Positions 172 to 4,276 of a stretch of 6,001 nucleotides of DNA are shown here, piece by piece. The notes below the pieces were generated by a model that saw only the letters and a list, made by a program, of their open reading frames with translations, had not been told where the DNA came from and did not search any database. This DNA is from a bacterium (lineage in GTDB: Bacteria > UBA9089 > CG2-30-40-21 > SBAY01): contig JBFLYA010000225.1 of assembly GCA_040757115.1 (NCBI GenBank), positions 1-6,001 of the forward strand. The letters are read 5' to 3'. Each line of letters starts with the position of its first letter. Position 1 is the stretch's first letter. The translations under genes and the position numbers were made by a program.

Positions 172-948
172 TTACAATTTTTCTTCCAGAATCCTCTTTA
201 ATTTCTCATGCATGATATACCATATTTTTCCTTCTGCAGGGTTTTGGGGTGTAGGTTTTATTTCATTATTGAGTAATTTTTCAACACATTCTGCCATCAA
301 TCTGAAGACAAAATCAAATCCACGCTGGCGAATTTCTTCGATTGACTTACAACCTTCCAAACTGAATGGTTTTTGATATAAAATATCTCCAGTATCAATT
401 CCACGGTCCATAAAATGTATCGTCCCAATTGTCTCATCATTATTAAGATATGCCCATTCGATGACATTCATCCCACGATATTTTGGTAAAAAGCCGGCAT
501 GGGCATTAACTACCTTTAGATTGGGGATATTGAGGATGATTTCTTTCACAATTCCCACGCTAAATGCTATTAAGATGTTTATCTGTAGTTCTTTAATGAG
601 ATTGGCACATTTGTTGGTGTTTAAATAATTAACAGAATAAACAGGAACATTGTTTTTAACTGCCCATTCATAGATAGAAATTCGTTCCTGCTCTGGTATT
701 TCATTTTTTCCCTTTGGGATTTCCTTTGTTTTATTTTCTTTAATCAACCCTGATTTAACCATTATTTTCCTGAAAATCCCTAATCCTTCTGTCTTAAGTT
801 GAAGTTTGAGAGAATTTAGTAGATTTTGTCCTTGTTTTCTTTTGACAAGAATTATGGCAGAAACAGGAATATGGCGTTTTTCAAATTCTTTAAGCACGGT
901 TATGCTGGCGCGATTATAAGCTCCGCGAGTGATTAATCCAATTCTCAT
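172..948 (-). CDS. Formyltransferase-family protein, probably sugar-nucleotide N-formyltransferase-like
   Basis: This 258-residue protein has the Formyl_trans_N (PF00551) catalytic signature. It shows N148-A-H150 followed by the LPKYRG loop (154-159), then DRGIDTGDIL (181-190), where D185 aligns with the catalytic Asp of Fmt and PurN. The Asn-His-Asp triad is therefore intact, and N10-formyltetrahydrofolate is the expected donor. An N-terminal Rossmann-like strand (RIGLIT) comes first, then an unusual lysine-rich stretch at about 36-90 before the conserved core. It lacks the C-terminal OB domain of methionyl-tRNA formyltransferase (about 315 aa), so it is unlikely to be Fmt. With deacetylase and glycosyltransferase neighbours, formylation of an amino sugar is the best guess, comparable to the VioF/WbkC type; the substrate is unproven. 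The start overlaps the upstream stop by 4 nt (ATGA), and it is the last gene of the run. Confidence 0.85.
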   Translation of the reverse strand: MRIGLITRGAYNRASITVLKEFEKRHIPVSAIILVKRKQGQNLLNSLKLQLKTEGLGIFRKIMVKSGLIKENKTKEIPKGKNEIPEQERISIYEWAVKNNVPVYSVNYLNTNKCANLIKELQINILIAFSVGIVKEIILNIPNLKVVNAHAGFLPKYRGMNVIEWAYLNNDETIGTIHFMDRGIDTGDILYQKPFSLEGCKSIEEIRQRGFDFVFRLMAECVEKLLNNEIKPTPQNPAEGKIWYIMHEKLKRILEEKL

Positions 949-2150
949 TTAAGAATCTCCTCTTTTAATTGTTTTATAATCCTGTCTTCTAATATCAGTG
1001 CATCTACGAAATATTTTGTTGCCCAACTGGGGTAAGAAAAGATACGATAGTCGCCCCAGATAGGGTGTGAACCCTTTATTCCTGCTTGTATTCCTTTATC
1101 AGAGGAATTTAGAACCTGCGTCGAAATGAGGAAATCATTCATTTTTAATGAGGCATTCAAATATTTAAAATCTTTAGTCTTTTCAAATAACCTCATCCAG
1201 ATAATTGACATCTGAGCACAGCCGGTTAAACAACAAGAAGTAACGGTTGGTTTCCAATCAGAATTATATCTTCCTTTTAAAGACTTATCAATCTCAAATC
1301 TTTTTAAAAGGGCATCAGCCGAGATTGTAGCTTTTTCAATATATCTTTGCTCATTTAATAGAATGCCTGATTCTAAAAGTCCCTCAATGGTATATCCAAT
1401 GGTATGAGTAAGTGGCTCAAAATTTCTTTTTGGGCTATTATCACAATCTTTAAACCAGCCATTTTCCTGTTGTAGTGTTAGTGCCCATTCGATATTTTTT
1501 CTTGCGGCTTGTCGGTATTTATCTTCTTGATTTATCTGATAAAATTCTAACAATGGCAAATCAACCCTTGTATCATAGACCCGCACAATATCTAAATAGA
1601 CATATTGTCTCCAGGCACCATCATCATCTTGAACTGCACATATCCAATCAGCCGCCTTTTTAGCCGCATTATAATATTTTAAATCATTCGTTTCTTTATA
1701 AGCCCTGGTTAAACCCTGGAGTATCTGGCCTGTATTAAACACTGTAGGTTTAGCTCCTCGACCAACATATCCCCCTTGAAAGGCACCATTTTCCATCTGG
1801 ATGGAAAGTTCAAAATCAGCCATTTTAATGGCACGATTTCTTATTTCCTTATATGAGGTCAGGTGATAATAATCAAAGAAGGTAGGGATAATATAACCGG
1901 TTACCTCCGGGTAAGAACTTGACCAACCTTTATCAAAGAAATATGTTGCCACTCCACCATCACCCGTTGTATCCTGGGCTCGACACAACCAATTTATGGC
2001 CGCATCTATATATTTTGTATTTGTCTGGTAATCATCCCGTTCAGGTTTTATTAATAACCAGTCGTGATAGATTATCTTAAATCGGGCTGGATAAATTAAA
2101 TTGCGGACCATTGCTATTCCAAATTTAATCTTTTGTTTAATACCATCCAT
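945..2150 (-). CDS. Alpha/alpha-toroid protein with QxxxGxW-like repeats, function unknown
   Basis: This 401-residue protein has no visible signal peptide or membrane segment. It is built of helical-hairpin repeats that each end in a Q-x-x-x-G turn: Q59..G63, Q118..G122 (F124), Q174..G178-A-W180 and Q227..G231-W-F233, spaced 53-59 residues apart. A further degenerate unit begins near Q345 and runs to HPIWGDY (362-368). This resembles the QW turns of terpene-cyclase/prenyltransferase toroids and the barrels of six-hairpin glycosidases and AGE or C5-epimerase-like enzymes. Other conserved-looking stretches are the SCCLTG segment (305-310) and the YDTRVDLPLLEFY region (192-204). No catalytic residue set can be assigned. 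Its position between a deacetylase and a formyltransferase suggests it acts on a glycan or lipid-linked glycan, either as a lyase, hydrolase or epimerase or as a binding scaffold. The start is supported by a strong Shine-Dalgarno site. The fold is fairly sure, the activity is not. Confidence 0.75.
   Translation of the reverse strand: MDGIKQKIKFGIAMVRNLIYPARFKIIYHDWLLIKPERDDYQTNTKYIDAAINWLCRAQDTTGDGGVATYFFDKGWSSSYPEVTGYIIPTFFDYYHLTSYKEIRNRAIKMADFELSIQMENGAFQGGYVGRGAKPTVFNTGQILQGLTRAYKETNDLKYYNAAKKAADWICAVQDDDGAWRQYVYLDIVRVYDTRVDLPLLEFYQINQEDKYRQAARKNIEWALTLQQENGWFKDCDNSPKRNFEPLTHTIGYTIEGLLESGILLNEQRYIEKATISADALLKRFEIDKSLKGRYNSDWKPTVTSCCLTGCAQMSIIWMRLFEKTKDFKYLNASLKMNDFLISTQVLNSSDKGIQAGIKGSHPIWGDYRIFSYPSWATKYFVDALILEDRIIKQLKEEILK
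957..963 (-). promoter_or_regulatory. Ribosome binding site of the formyltransferase gene
   Basis: AGAGGAG on the minus strand lies 8 bases before the ATG at 948. It sits inside the 3' end of the toroid gene, as expected for coupled translation, and supports the chosen start. Confidence 0.75.
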
Positions 2151-2158
2151 CAGTTAGA

Positions 2159-2167
2159 ACCTCCTTT
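2159..2167 (-). promoter_or_regulatory. Strong ribosome binding site of the toroid gene
   Basis: AAAGGAGGT on the minus strand is a near-perfect anti-Shine-Dalgarno complement, 8 bases before the ATG at 2150. It lies just outside the mobile element and the target duplication. Before insertion it would have been inside the last codons of the deacetylase gene (Lys-Gly-Gly), so it is the original coupled site and was not brought in by the element. Confidence 0.85.
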
Positions 2168-2170
2168 CGG

Positions 2171-2179
2171 GACTTTTAT
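2171..2179. repeat. Target-site duplication, left copy
   Basis: GACTTTTAT (ATAAAAGTC on the minus strand) is repeated perfectly at 2573-2581, just outside the two ends of the 393-bp element. The identity extends two more bases (TA), because the element's own end also begins with TA. Confidence 0.8.
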
Positions 2180-2194: not shown

Positions 2195-2260
2195 CCAAGG
2201 AACTATAGTTTTTAAGCGGGTATTTAAAACCTCTATTTTTATCAATTTCCTCCAAAGAGC

Positions 2261-2297
2261 AAAATGCAAAAAGCAAATATAAAAATTACATATCAAA
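2261..2297 (+). repeat. Internal inverted repeat, left arm, flanking the four-helix-bundle remnant
   Basis: AAAATGCAAAA (2261-2271) is an exact inverted match to TTTTGCATTTT at 2489-2499. The adjacent 16-base block at 2282-2297 matches the complement of 2477-2492 at 15 of 16 positions. The arms lie well inside the terminal repeats and border the coding remnant closely. This resembles the pairing ends that let 23S rRNA intervening sequences fold as a stem. The sequence match is direct; the link to intervening sequences is inferred. Confidence 0.6.
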
Positions 2298-2304
2298 ATG
2301 TAAA
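2276..2304 (-). promoter_or_regulatory. Possible sigma70-type promoter inside the element, directed at the toroid gene
   Basis: On the minus strand, TTTACA (complement of 2299-2304) and TATATT (complement of 2276-2281) are exactly 17 bases apart. Each matches five of six bases of the consensus -35 and -10 boxes. Transcription would start near 2269 and run toward the toroid and formyltransferase genes. Such matches are common by chance in DNA this AT-rich, and the boxes overlap the internal repeats, so this is a hypothesis only. Confidence 0.3.
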
Positions 2305-2305
2305 A

Positions 2306-2497
2306 TTATCTCTTTCCTTTCAGCGTTAAAATACTTGAAGCAAAGATATTACCAAATTCCTCCAACTCTTTGAGAAACCGTGCTACTTTCTCTGGTTTAG
2401 CATGTTTACTATCACGAAGTAATGCAAGCCATAACTTACTTTCGTTAACAGTCTTTTCTCGAAGTCCTTTTTGAAATTTGATTTGTAATTTTGCATT
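2306..2497 (-). pseudogene. Four-helix-bundle (S23, 23S rRNA intervening-sequence) protein, C-terminal remnant
   Basis: The minus-strand frame ending in TAA at 2306-2308 encodes a stretch starting KGLREKTVNESKLWLALLRD, followed by an acidic/basic helix and ending in IFASSILTLKGKR. This is the pattern of the last two helices of the S23/IVP four-helix-bundle family (PF05635, TIGR02436), including the E-S-K-x-W-L segment and a final IxASSI helix. The usual first half, with its G-S-x-A-N-I-A-E-like region, is absent. The frame instead enters low-complexity AAATTACAAATC-type DNA and meets a stop at 2498-2500, with no in-frame ATG. Family members are about 115-130 aa and only about 55 recognisable residues remain, so it is treated as a truncated relic. 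It sits inside the mobile element, bordered by inverted repeats. Confidence 0.75.
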
Positions 2498-2499
2498 TT
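2477..2499 (-). repeat. Internal inverted repeat, right arm
   Basis: This is the partner of 2261-2297: TTTTGCATTTT at 2489-2499 is an exact inverted match, and 2477-2492 matches 15 of 16. It marks the point where recognisable S23 coding sequence gives way to low-complexity DNA. The adjoining 2503-2517 adds two TATTTGAT-type units. Confidence 0.6.
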
Positions 2500-2557: not shown

Positions 2558-2572
2558 TTTTGCAGAACCCTA
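2558..2572 (-). repeat. Terminal inverted repeat, right end of the element
   Basis: On the minus strand this reads TAGGGTTCTGCAAAA. Its first three bases are the present stop codon of the deacetylase gene, so the element end overlaps that coding sequence. Confidence 0.8.
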
Positions 2573-4276
2573 GACTTTTATTAAAAATTCCTTTGTCGCC
2601 TCTTTGGTGATTAACATACATTCCGTCTCGGATAAAGGGTGAAGGTCACACTTAACCCCCTCAATGGCAAGATTTTTTAAATTAATATTACTGAGTTTAA
2701 AAGAAAAATCTCTTTCTATGAGTATGTCAGAAATACATCTATACTCAAATCTGTCTTCTTTTATTATTCTAACCGCTTCACGCCTTTTCCACCACTGAAT
2801 AATATCCTGACATAATCTCACATAAATTTTATTCTCAGATAACCATTCTAATATCTCTTCATATATTCTTTCCCGGCCTGGATTTTCTTTTTCATTAAAT
2901 CCCTGTTGATGCCAGAGAATTATACCTAATCCATTATAGTTTTTAGCCATTTCCAATAACCTTTTGATATTGGTTAATGCTTCATCTGGGGAGTATTTCT
3001 GATAAGTAAATAATGTCGTATCCATAATTATCAGTGGTAACTCGATTAATGGCAATTTTTTATTCTCTTTAATATGATAAAGATACAAAGGGAAACTGCA
3101 TCCTGTTCGGAATCCTTCATGGTCAGCATAGCCAACCGTAGTATCATATTCAAAACCTGCCTCTGTATAAACTTGCCATGTGACCTCCGGATTAAATCTT
3201 AGATAATGACCTCTAATGCCGTTGATAGGATAACTTGATATTTTCTCAACTCGCTTCTTTTCACATAAAACTTGATTGTGCCTATTATAAGAATCATAAC
3301 TTGCGTGTAATCCAATCTCAAATCCTTGTTGACTAATTTCTTTAACAATATTTTTTAGTTTTTTATTTCTGATTTTATATGTACTATTATCTGCTAATAG
3401 ATAAAAGGAAGAGAGATAGCCGTATTGTTTTTCTAATCGGACTATTTTCTCAAAATTCCAGTAAGGGTCCTCATATCGCAAGCAATTATAAATCTCTAAT
3501 ATTCCATTTTGAATCCATTGATATTTACATTTTAGAGTTCCGACGATTATCTCTCTTATTCCTTTTTCCCATAGTTTCCATTTCTGAATATCGTCCACAT
3601 CATGCGTTAAACAAACTGCTGATATTCTTCCTTCTGGCCAGTACCACTTCTGAACGAGAACCTCTTTTTGCCTCTTTGCACAATATAAAAATATTTGCTG
3701 TAAGAAGGTTAGATAAATGCTGACAATCGGTGTTTCAACAAGTTTATCCAACATACTGTAAGAAGATAAGAACCTATCGTGAATATCTCTTTTAAGTGAT
3801 AGAATTTGCTCCTGACATGTCACTAAATAGAATGTCGAGGCAATAATATCAATTTTAATGTCTATTATGGTTACATTCCCCTGTTGTCTGGTAGATAAAA
3901 TATCATTATCAAAACAAAGATTTTCAGCGTCAAGATAAGTAATTTTTTTTAAAATTTCTGATAAGAATTTATTTTCTAAAGTAACGATTTCCTGCCAATA
4001 GGATTGTGTTTTATCTTTATCCAGCTTAGACTTGAAAAGGGAACGAAGCGATATAAATTCTTGACTACAAGGGATATTGACAATTATTCCTGTTTTTTCA
4101 AGACAATTGGGAAGACTGTCTCCATAATTTATTATCAACAAAGGGTTAGTTTTAATAAGTTCCTTATGATTAGAAGAAACAACATAAGAAATCCCTATGG
4201 TATTAAGTAATATCTCAAATACATAGGTAATCTCGTTATCAATTGCAGAATCCCAGTTTTTATATATTCCAATCAT
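2570..4276 (-). CDS. Polysaccharide deacetylase (NodB-like/CE4-type) with large N-terminal domain
   Basis: This 568-residue protein has an N-terminal region of about 200 residues without catalytic motifs, then a deacetylase domain at roughly 215-500. It begins with T224-H-D-V-D228, the variant of the metal/catalytic-base motif (TFDDG in classical CE4). H324 in GLHASYD (322-328) follows, then R355-G-H-Y-L-R-F361 and W455-H456 near the end of the barrel. These match the deacetylases of surface-polysaccharide clusters rather than classical chitin deacetylases. The last 60-70 residues look like a small beta-rich appendage. Expected reaction: removal of N- or O-acyl groups from a sugar. No signal peptide is visible, suggesting a cytoplasmic lipid-linked or nucleotide-linked substrate. 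The start overlaps the acyltransferase stop (ATGA), and its own Shine-Dalgarno is weak, pointing to coupling. The 3' end is truncated by six codons through the inserted element; the catalytic motifs are untouched. Confidence 0.85.
   Translation of the reverse strand: MIGIYKNWDSAIDNEITYVFEILLNTIGISYVVSSNHKELIKTNPLLIINYGDSLPNCLEKTGIIVNIPCSQEFISLRSLFKSKLDKDKTQSYWQEIVTLENKFLSEILKKITYLDAENLCFDNDILSTRQQGNVTIIDIKIDIIASTFYLVTCQEQILSLKRDIHDRFLSSYSMLDKLVETPIVSIYLTFLQQIFLYCAKRQKEVLVQKWYWPEGRISAVCLTHDVDDIQKWKLWEKGIREIIVGTLKCKYQWIQNGILEIYNCLRYEDPYWNFEKIVRLEKQYGYLSSFYLLADNSTYKIRNKKLKNIVKEISQQGFEIGLHASYDSYNRHNQVLCEKKRVEKISSYPINGIRGHYLRFNPEVTWQVYTEAGFEYDTTVGYADHEGFRTGCSFPLYLYHIKENKKLPLIELPLIIMDTTLFTYQKYSPDEALTNIKRLLEMAKNYNGLGIILWHQQGFNEKENPGRERIYEEILEWLSENKIYVRLCQDIIQWWKRREAVRIIKEDRFEYRCISDILIERDFSFKLSNINLKNLAIEGVKCDLHPLSETECMLITKEATKEFLIKV
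2573..2581. repeat. Target-site duplication, right copy
   Basis: GACTTTTAT is identical to 2171-2179. On the minus strand it encodes the last three codons before the stop (Ile-Lys-Val) of the deacetylase, so it is the original gene sequence and the left copy is the duplicate. Confidence 0.8.

Follow-up and report, generated by a model that had tools for sequence, protein, structure and literature searches.

A probable non-autonomous transposon carrying a decayed S23 cassette of the intervening-sequence type in a bacterial operon

Among the closest described systems is the 23S rRNA intervening sequence (IVS) of Coxiella burnetii, in which heptameric repeats precede the start of the S23 gene (PMC4990558). 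That paper calls the function and origin of the IVS unclear, citing a 1990 idea of a transposition remnant and a 1993 idea of a mobility gene; the origin and movement of IVSs and the role of S23 are stated to have been unresolved for decades (PMC4990558). Heptameric repeats have also been described in Xanthomonas (GGGAATC) and Nostoc (PMC4692102), and the relation of Avd, from DGRs, to PF05635 has been noted (PMC10053308). Our search of open-access papers found no report of S23 cassettes in MITEs, or of the rule on heptad arms described below.

We analysed a 6,001-nucleotide stretch of a bacterial genome (the window; genome G000) together with the rest of the genome, its relatives and S23 loci from other phyla. 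The sister species (G001) was the sole other genome of the genus compared.

The element in the window and its S23 relic

The window contains a minus-strand operon for glycan synthesis, encoding a glycosyltransferase, a FemAB/GNAT-like protein, a DUF7033 protein, a pectate-lyase/epimerase-like protein and a formyltransferase. A MITE-like element of 393 bp, which we assigned to family A, was placed between the third (DUF7033) and fourth (pectate-lyase/epimerase-like) genes. It is larger than the segment 2261-2499 singled out in the preliminary description. The features are as follows.

945-2150, minus strand: downstream host gene, 401 aa, pectate-lyase/epimerase-like; its own SD lies outside the element
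2171-2179, no strand: left 9-bp target-site duplication GACTTTTAT; one copy at the empty site (G001:C220)
2180-2572, S23-sense strand minus, as for both flanking genes: family-A MITE-like element, delimited by TIRs, target duplication and empty site
2180-2194, no strand: left TIR TAGAATTCTGCAAAA, from the element end and the family consensus
2259-2299, minus strand: 3′ stem arm, complementary to 2471-2519, from the inverted repeat, arm test and fold
2306-2447, minus strand: C-terminal part of the S23 relic, about 46 codons plus stop, frame broken, from alignment to C211
2448-2496, minus strand: N-terminal part of the S23 relic, ATG plus 16 codons, from alignment to C211
2471-2519, minus strand: 5′ stem arm, degenerate tandem repeat (CAAATAT CAAATAT ...), overlapping the S23 start
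2558-2572, no strand: right TIR, reverse complement TAGGGTTCTGCAAAA, at the element end
2570-4276, minus strand: upstream host gene, 568 aa, DUF7033 match, C-terminus shortened by the insertion
2573-2581, no strand: right 9-bp target-site duplication GACTTTTAT, from the sequence and the empty site

The family-A TIR TAGRGTTCTGCAAAA was found at both ends of the element, as in a MITE, and the 9-bp repeat GACTTTTAT was perfect on both flanks. On contig C220 of the sister species, the sequences corresponding to window positions 1700-2179 and 2573-3000 meet with a 9-base overlap, which is an exact empty site; the target duplication of fixed length typical of MITEs is thus 9 bp both in the window and by comparison with this site. 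Insertion of the window element is demonstrated by the empty site, and the target duplication gives the direction of change as a gain in G000. The TAG at the element tip (2572-2570, minus strand) serves as the stop codon of the upstream gene. The 568-aa protein lost its final six residues to the insertion: at the empty site its counterpart has six more, ends in EFLIKVPKGDSN, and is terminated by a TGA that overlaps the ATG of the next gene. The 401-aa gene starts 30 nt past the element.

An Rfam search of the window gave no RNA family match. Positions 1-177 are the right half of another dispersed element, with the tip CCTGAACGGTTAC as in the IS66 and family-D ends described below and a tandem-repeat stem (TAGAAACTAATAGAAAT / ATTTCTACCTATTTCT) without S23; this sequence is also nested within a family-A element on contig C176 (L090).

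The S23 (PF05635) relic lies on the minus strand and consists of two parts joined out of frame by a 181-bp deletion, as measured by alignment to the complete 584-bp element on contig C211. The deletion point is 2448/2447, and the relic retains the C-terminal 46 of 123 codons plus the start, so the preliminary description of a C-terminal half was about right. Intact S23 copies were present between family-A ends on C211 and on C50, where the element runs off the contig. The C211 protein (123 aa) matched PF05635 with 67.2 bits (cut-off 33.8), and its AlphaFold model was a four-helix bundle (mean pLDDT 92) whose top structural matches were the S23 structures 2RLD and 2GSC, followed by Avd of DGRs. 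Profile and fold place this copy in the S23/23S_rRNA_IVP family. The two intact genes differ by six synonymous and three nonsynonymous changes (pN/pS 0.13, p 0.003), and on this comparison of sequences they look to be under purifying selection.

Two sets of bordering inverted repeats had been described beforehand. Both are present: the outer set is the TIRs of 2180-2572, and the inner set is the stem of the S23 cassette. For the arm test, DNA just upstream of S23 was aligned to the reverse complement of DNA just downstream, with dinucleotide shuffles as the reference. The intact copy gave z 6.2, in line with the complementary ends of an IVS stem; its best repeat period was 7. RNA folding, proposed earlier as a check for a long stem, showed a moderately stable structure for the decayed window copy (z -2.4) and a stronger one for the intact element (z -3.1; 0 of 100 shuffles as good). 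Unlike an IVS inserted in an rRNA gene, the window element lies between protein genes.

Family A and other carriers of S23

The 15-base family-A end occurred at 125 sites in G000, against none for the reversed sequence, which excludes chance as the source of the TIR. The sister species had 12 such sites, two species from a second genus in the family had 4 and 2, and the rest of the phylum had 0-1; these numbers point to a recent burst of family A in G000. Copy counts rest on scored candidate loci and matches to the end pattern, and the scored candidates amounted to ~40 related copies. Family-A elements are 300-600 bp long, lack a transposase and occur in high copy, as MITEs do. Flanking repeats of at least 8 bp were found in 17 of the 21 closed elements, although the longer values partly reflect repeat context. 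By the exact-match test, a target duplication was absent in four elements, in L014 only through a one-base indel. A proposed check was whether intact copies have these terminal repeats and duplications of 9 bp; they do, and the ends are common to C211 and C50. In all 21 closed copies, 30 nt or more of the S23 reading frame survive, and in 15 of them 30 nt or more lie past the first 16 S23 codons. In several, a further tandem-repeat stem without S23, or a D-type insert nested in the element, was also present. The 21 closed elements contained no transposase gene between their A-type ends, and no autonomous family-A partner was found. An IS256 transposase was rejected as the partner; it is a single broken copy without A or C ends.

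About 26 S23 matches were detected in the genome, some of them stand-alone and others carried by four or more mutually unrelated TIR families (A, D, E and F). The S23 core of family A also occurred between B ends (GGTGGTGTCT) and C ends (GGGTGTATGTAAAATT). Half of the B elements (6/12) had 8-bp duplications, and many near-identical B copies contained the complete right end of A. B-type copies of 356 bp, such as L048 942-1297 and L019 1353-1708, have this right end inside and 8-bp duplications. The B-type element is a recently amplified chimera. B derives from A; the derivation of C is uncertain. Unrelated S23 genes were found in D (TIR GTAAC.RTTCA, 8-bp duplication), in E (TIR AGTGCTCTGTCGC, target duplication not convincing) and in F (TIR CCCTACAACG, 4-bp duplication). 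A decayed IS66 transposon on contig C277, with the 15-bp TIR GTAACCGTTCAGGTA, has the same ends as D. The IS66 genes of the genome, the presumed drivers of D, appear broken or partial, and many D elements lack S23. The different duplication lengths imply different transposases, and the occurrence of S23 in several TIR families indicates that no fewer than four transposon-like families (A, D, E and F) acquired it.

S23 cassettes were also observed beside or within CRISPR-like arrays with the repeat GTAGGAAAATAAGACCTGATGAATAAGGGATTGCGAC (L021 on C42 and L026 on C7).

Stem arms of S23 genes and inserts in the 23S rRNA gene

Matching arms were found at 23 of the 25 S23 genes of the genome (z 5 to 17), and most arms matched their own partner and no other. 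A truncated gene and a gene broken by an insertion account for the other two. The arm motif varied from gene to gene (GGGACTC, GGTGTC, TATAGTTGA and others), and periods 7 and 8 dominated. The test was extended to 65 S23 loci of named genomes from ~15 phyla, with 40 shuffles each and 120 displaced controls. All 40 shuffles were beaten at 54 loci but at only 2 of the displaced controls, and z exceeded 5 at 47 loci and at none of the controls. The best repeat period was 7 in 86 of 94 arms, compared with 4 of 94 after shuffling. On either side, 38 of 45 neighbouring genes shared the strand of S23. The arm and strand results together indicate that an S23 gene typically caps a potential stem of heptad repeats and runs in the direction of its neighbours.

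At six loci (L142-L146 and L153, at ~1400-1800), a large DNA-methyltransferase-like gene has an S23 cassette within it. The hosts are hot-spring Planctomycetota, Bacteroidia, Thermoflexus, Kapabacteria, Chloroflexi and HR30. The methyltransferase-like frame stays open through the cassette, and S23 is read in another frame.

A comparison with insertions in the 23S rRNA gene had been suggested. Only one 23S gene was found; it exceeds the model in length and carries two inserts on L079:

~1425-1505, minus strand: 78-nt insert in a helix loop at model position 1218/1219
~2205-2290, minus strand: second insert, further 3′

We take model position 1218/1219 to be the classical helix-45 IVS site. The helix-45 insert contains partly complementary repeats with a ~9-nt period. 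Its arms scored 12 (shuffle mean 7.1, maximum 15), which is weaker than S23 arms, and it holds neither S23 nor family-A terminal repeats. The second insert showed no significant pairing and no S23. The 23S gene was therefore ruled out as a holder of the window element; the helix-45 insert resembles the element in style, not in sequence or ends.

The results on stem arms, with the cassette turnover between sister species described below, suggest that IVSs in 23S rRNA are only the minority, resident in rRNA, of a wider class of stem cassettes. S23 cassettes are widespread outside rRNA, so an rRNA origin need not be assumed, and the earlier label of an rRNA-type relic was misleading. S23 with complementary heptad arms may constitute one very widespread mobile stem-cassette class, located mainly in intergenic gaps of protein operons, of which rRNA IVSs are a minority and MITEs one vehicle; the S23 protein might recognise the heptad stem and thereby aid spread or tolerance. 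We put this wider proposal forward tentatively, as possible but short of probable.

Origin of the element and comparison with known systems

We interpret the window element as a non-autonomous family-A transposon carrying a decayed S23 cassette of the IVS type, and consider that such cassettes spread in this genome partly by transposon hitch-hiking (probability about 0.78). A family-A element inserted at the junction of two overlapping glycan-synthesis genes, generating the 9-bp duplication; its interior is a decayed IVS-type cassette, in which an S23 gene is flanked by complementary arms of tandem repeats. This cassette was probably already present in the family-A ancestor, and internal-deletion derivatives like the window copy would then have multiplied with a transposase presumably supplied in trans. 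Unrelated S23 genes were likewise taken up by other TIR families. Cutting of the transcribed stem by RNase III would make an insertion within an operon mRNA tolerable, and any role of the S23 protein itself is putative. Hitch-hiking of S23 cassettes in MITE-like transposons is well supported for this genome. The earlier suggestion that IVSs spread in MITE-like elements gained support for S23 cassettes, from the empty site, the ends shared by intact copies and several TIR families with differing duplication lengths, but not for the movement of rRNA IVSs.

Transposon carriage is not the sole route of movement, since a TIR-less S23 cassette was present in the sister species, where it separates a stop codon from the SD that follows, and cleanly absent from G000 (L110 and L231). 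At three sites with flanks ~90-98% identical, the two species had different S23 proteins and different repeat arms (L027/L104, L034/L101 and L036/L111). Other sites had an S23 gene in one species and only a tandem-repeat array or a different stem element in the other, and tandem-repeat arrays of one kind occurred with and without an S23 gene in them (L107/L235 and L038/L199). Site-specific homing was considered for the sites with different cassettes and dropped; the gaps are full of stem elements, so shared slots are unsurprising. The S23 stem cassette might itself be the mobile unit, with A-F having arisen when cassettes landed in existing MITEs and were then copied. The L110/L231 difference, the exchanged cassettes between flanks 93-98% identical and the presence or absence of S23 within like arrays all agree with this. 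However, the TIR-less junctions show no target duplication or defined ends, no enzyme is known, and the differences could have arisen by loss, by gene conversion or by transfer of flanking DNA. We regard this account as rather unlikely, and it is compatible with hitch-hiking as a second step.

S23 could instead be the mobility machinery of family A: an intact A element would be complete, S23 would be an accessory of recombination or retro-mobility, and the deleted copies would be its MITEs. S23 is the sole gene in any A element and recurs in several TIR families, its intact copies look to be under purifying selection, and its fold matches Avd, including Avd in the DGR reverse-transcriptase complex, which provides a precedent for an accessory. 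However, no catalytic site is known in S23, TIR families whose duplications measure 9, 8 and 4 bp must rely on different recombinases, and the D ends come from an IS66 transposon, which has a transposase of its own. In addition, many D elements lack S23, and stand-alone S23 cassettes lack TIRs. The preliminary description had raised a similar alternative, that the protein belongs to the biology of the element; it is weakened because most S23 genes of the genome have unrelated flanks, one of the refuting conditions named there, although none of the 21 closed copies is wholly without S23 sequence. A mobility role is improbable on these grounds.

A start codon lay 15-43 nt downstream on the S23-sense strand in 16 of the 21 A insertions, and the upstream neighbour was on the same strand at 13 of the 14 scorable ones. 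Domestication as an mRNA-processing or regulatory part of the operon, retained to separate expression of the two genes, would accord with this sense orientation, with the position just upstream of the next SD in most copies and with the strong stem, but it is very improbable: the sister species lacks the element in its orthologous operon, copies adjoin numerous unrelated genes, S23 is decayed, and selection against harmful insertions could produce the same position and orientation.

S23 cassettes have now been caught in transposons with target duplications and an empty site in a sister species, and their stems obey a simple rule (complementary, mostly 7-bp tandem repeats) over ~15 phyla. With transposon capture and the stem rule, direct tests become possible of where IVSs come from, how they spread and what they do. 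Both results may also help to place the heptameric repeats of bacterial genomes, which have lacked an explanation.

Avd of DGRs (PDB 4DWL; PMC10053308) has the same fold as the family-A S23 model (TM ~0.7-0.8), whereas no reverse transcriptase or template repeat was noticed beside the S23 cassettes looked at. The Xanthomonas and Nostoc repeats (PMC4692102) are likewise intergenic degenerate 7-mers, often paired in inverted orientation in Xanthomonas; no link to S23 was seen in that paper, whereas here the arms bracket S23 in ~15 phyla. Like MITEs, the window family is short, has TIRs, target duplications, many copies and internal deletion derivatives, and lacks a transposase; unlike them, it carries a non-transposase gene, S23, in a tandem-repeat stem, and several TIR families do so independently. 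The 23S IVS of Coxiella burnetii (PMC4990558) shares an S23 gene enclosed by complementary ends that form a stem, heptameric repeats by the S23 start, and decay of the gene while the stem survives. In contrast to that IVS, the cassettes described here reside in protein operons, within high-copy TIR elements flanked by target duplications.
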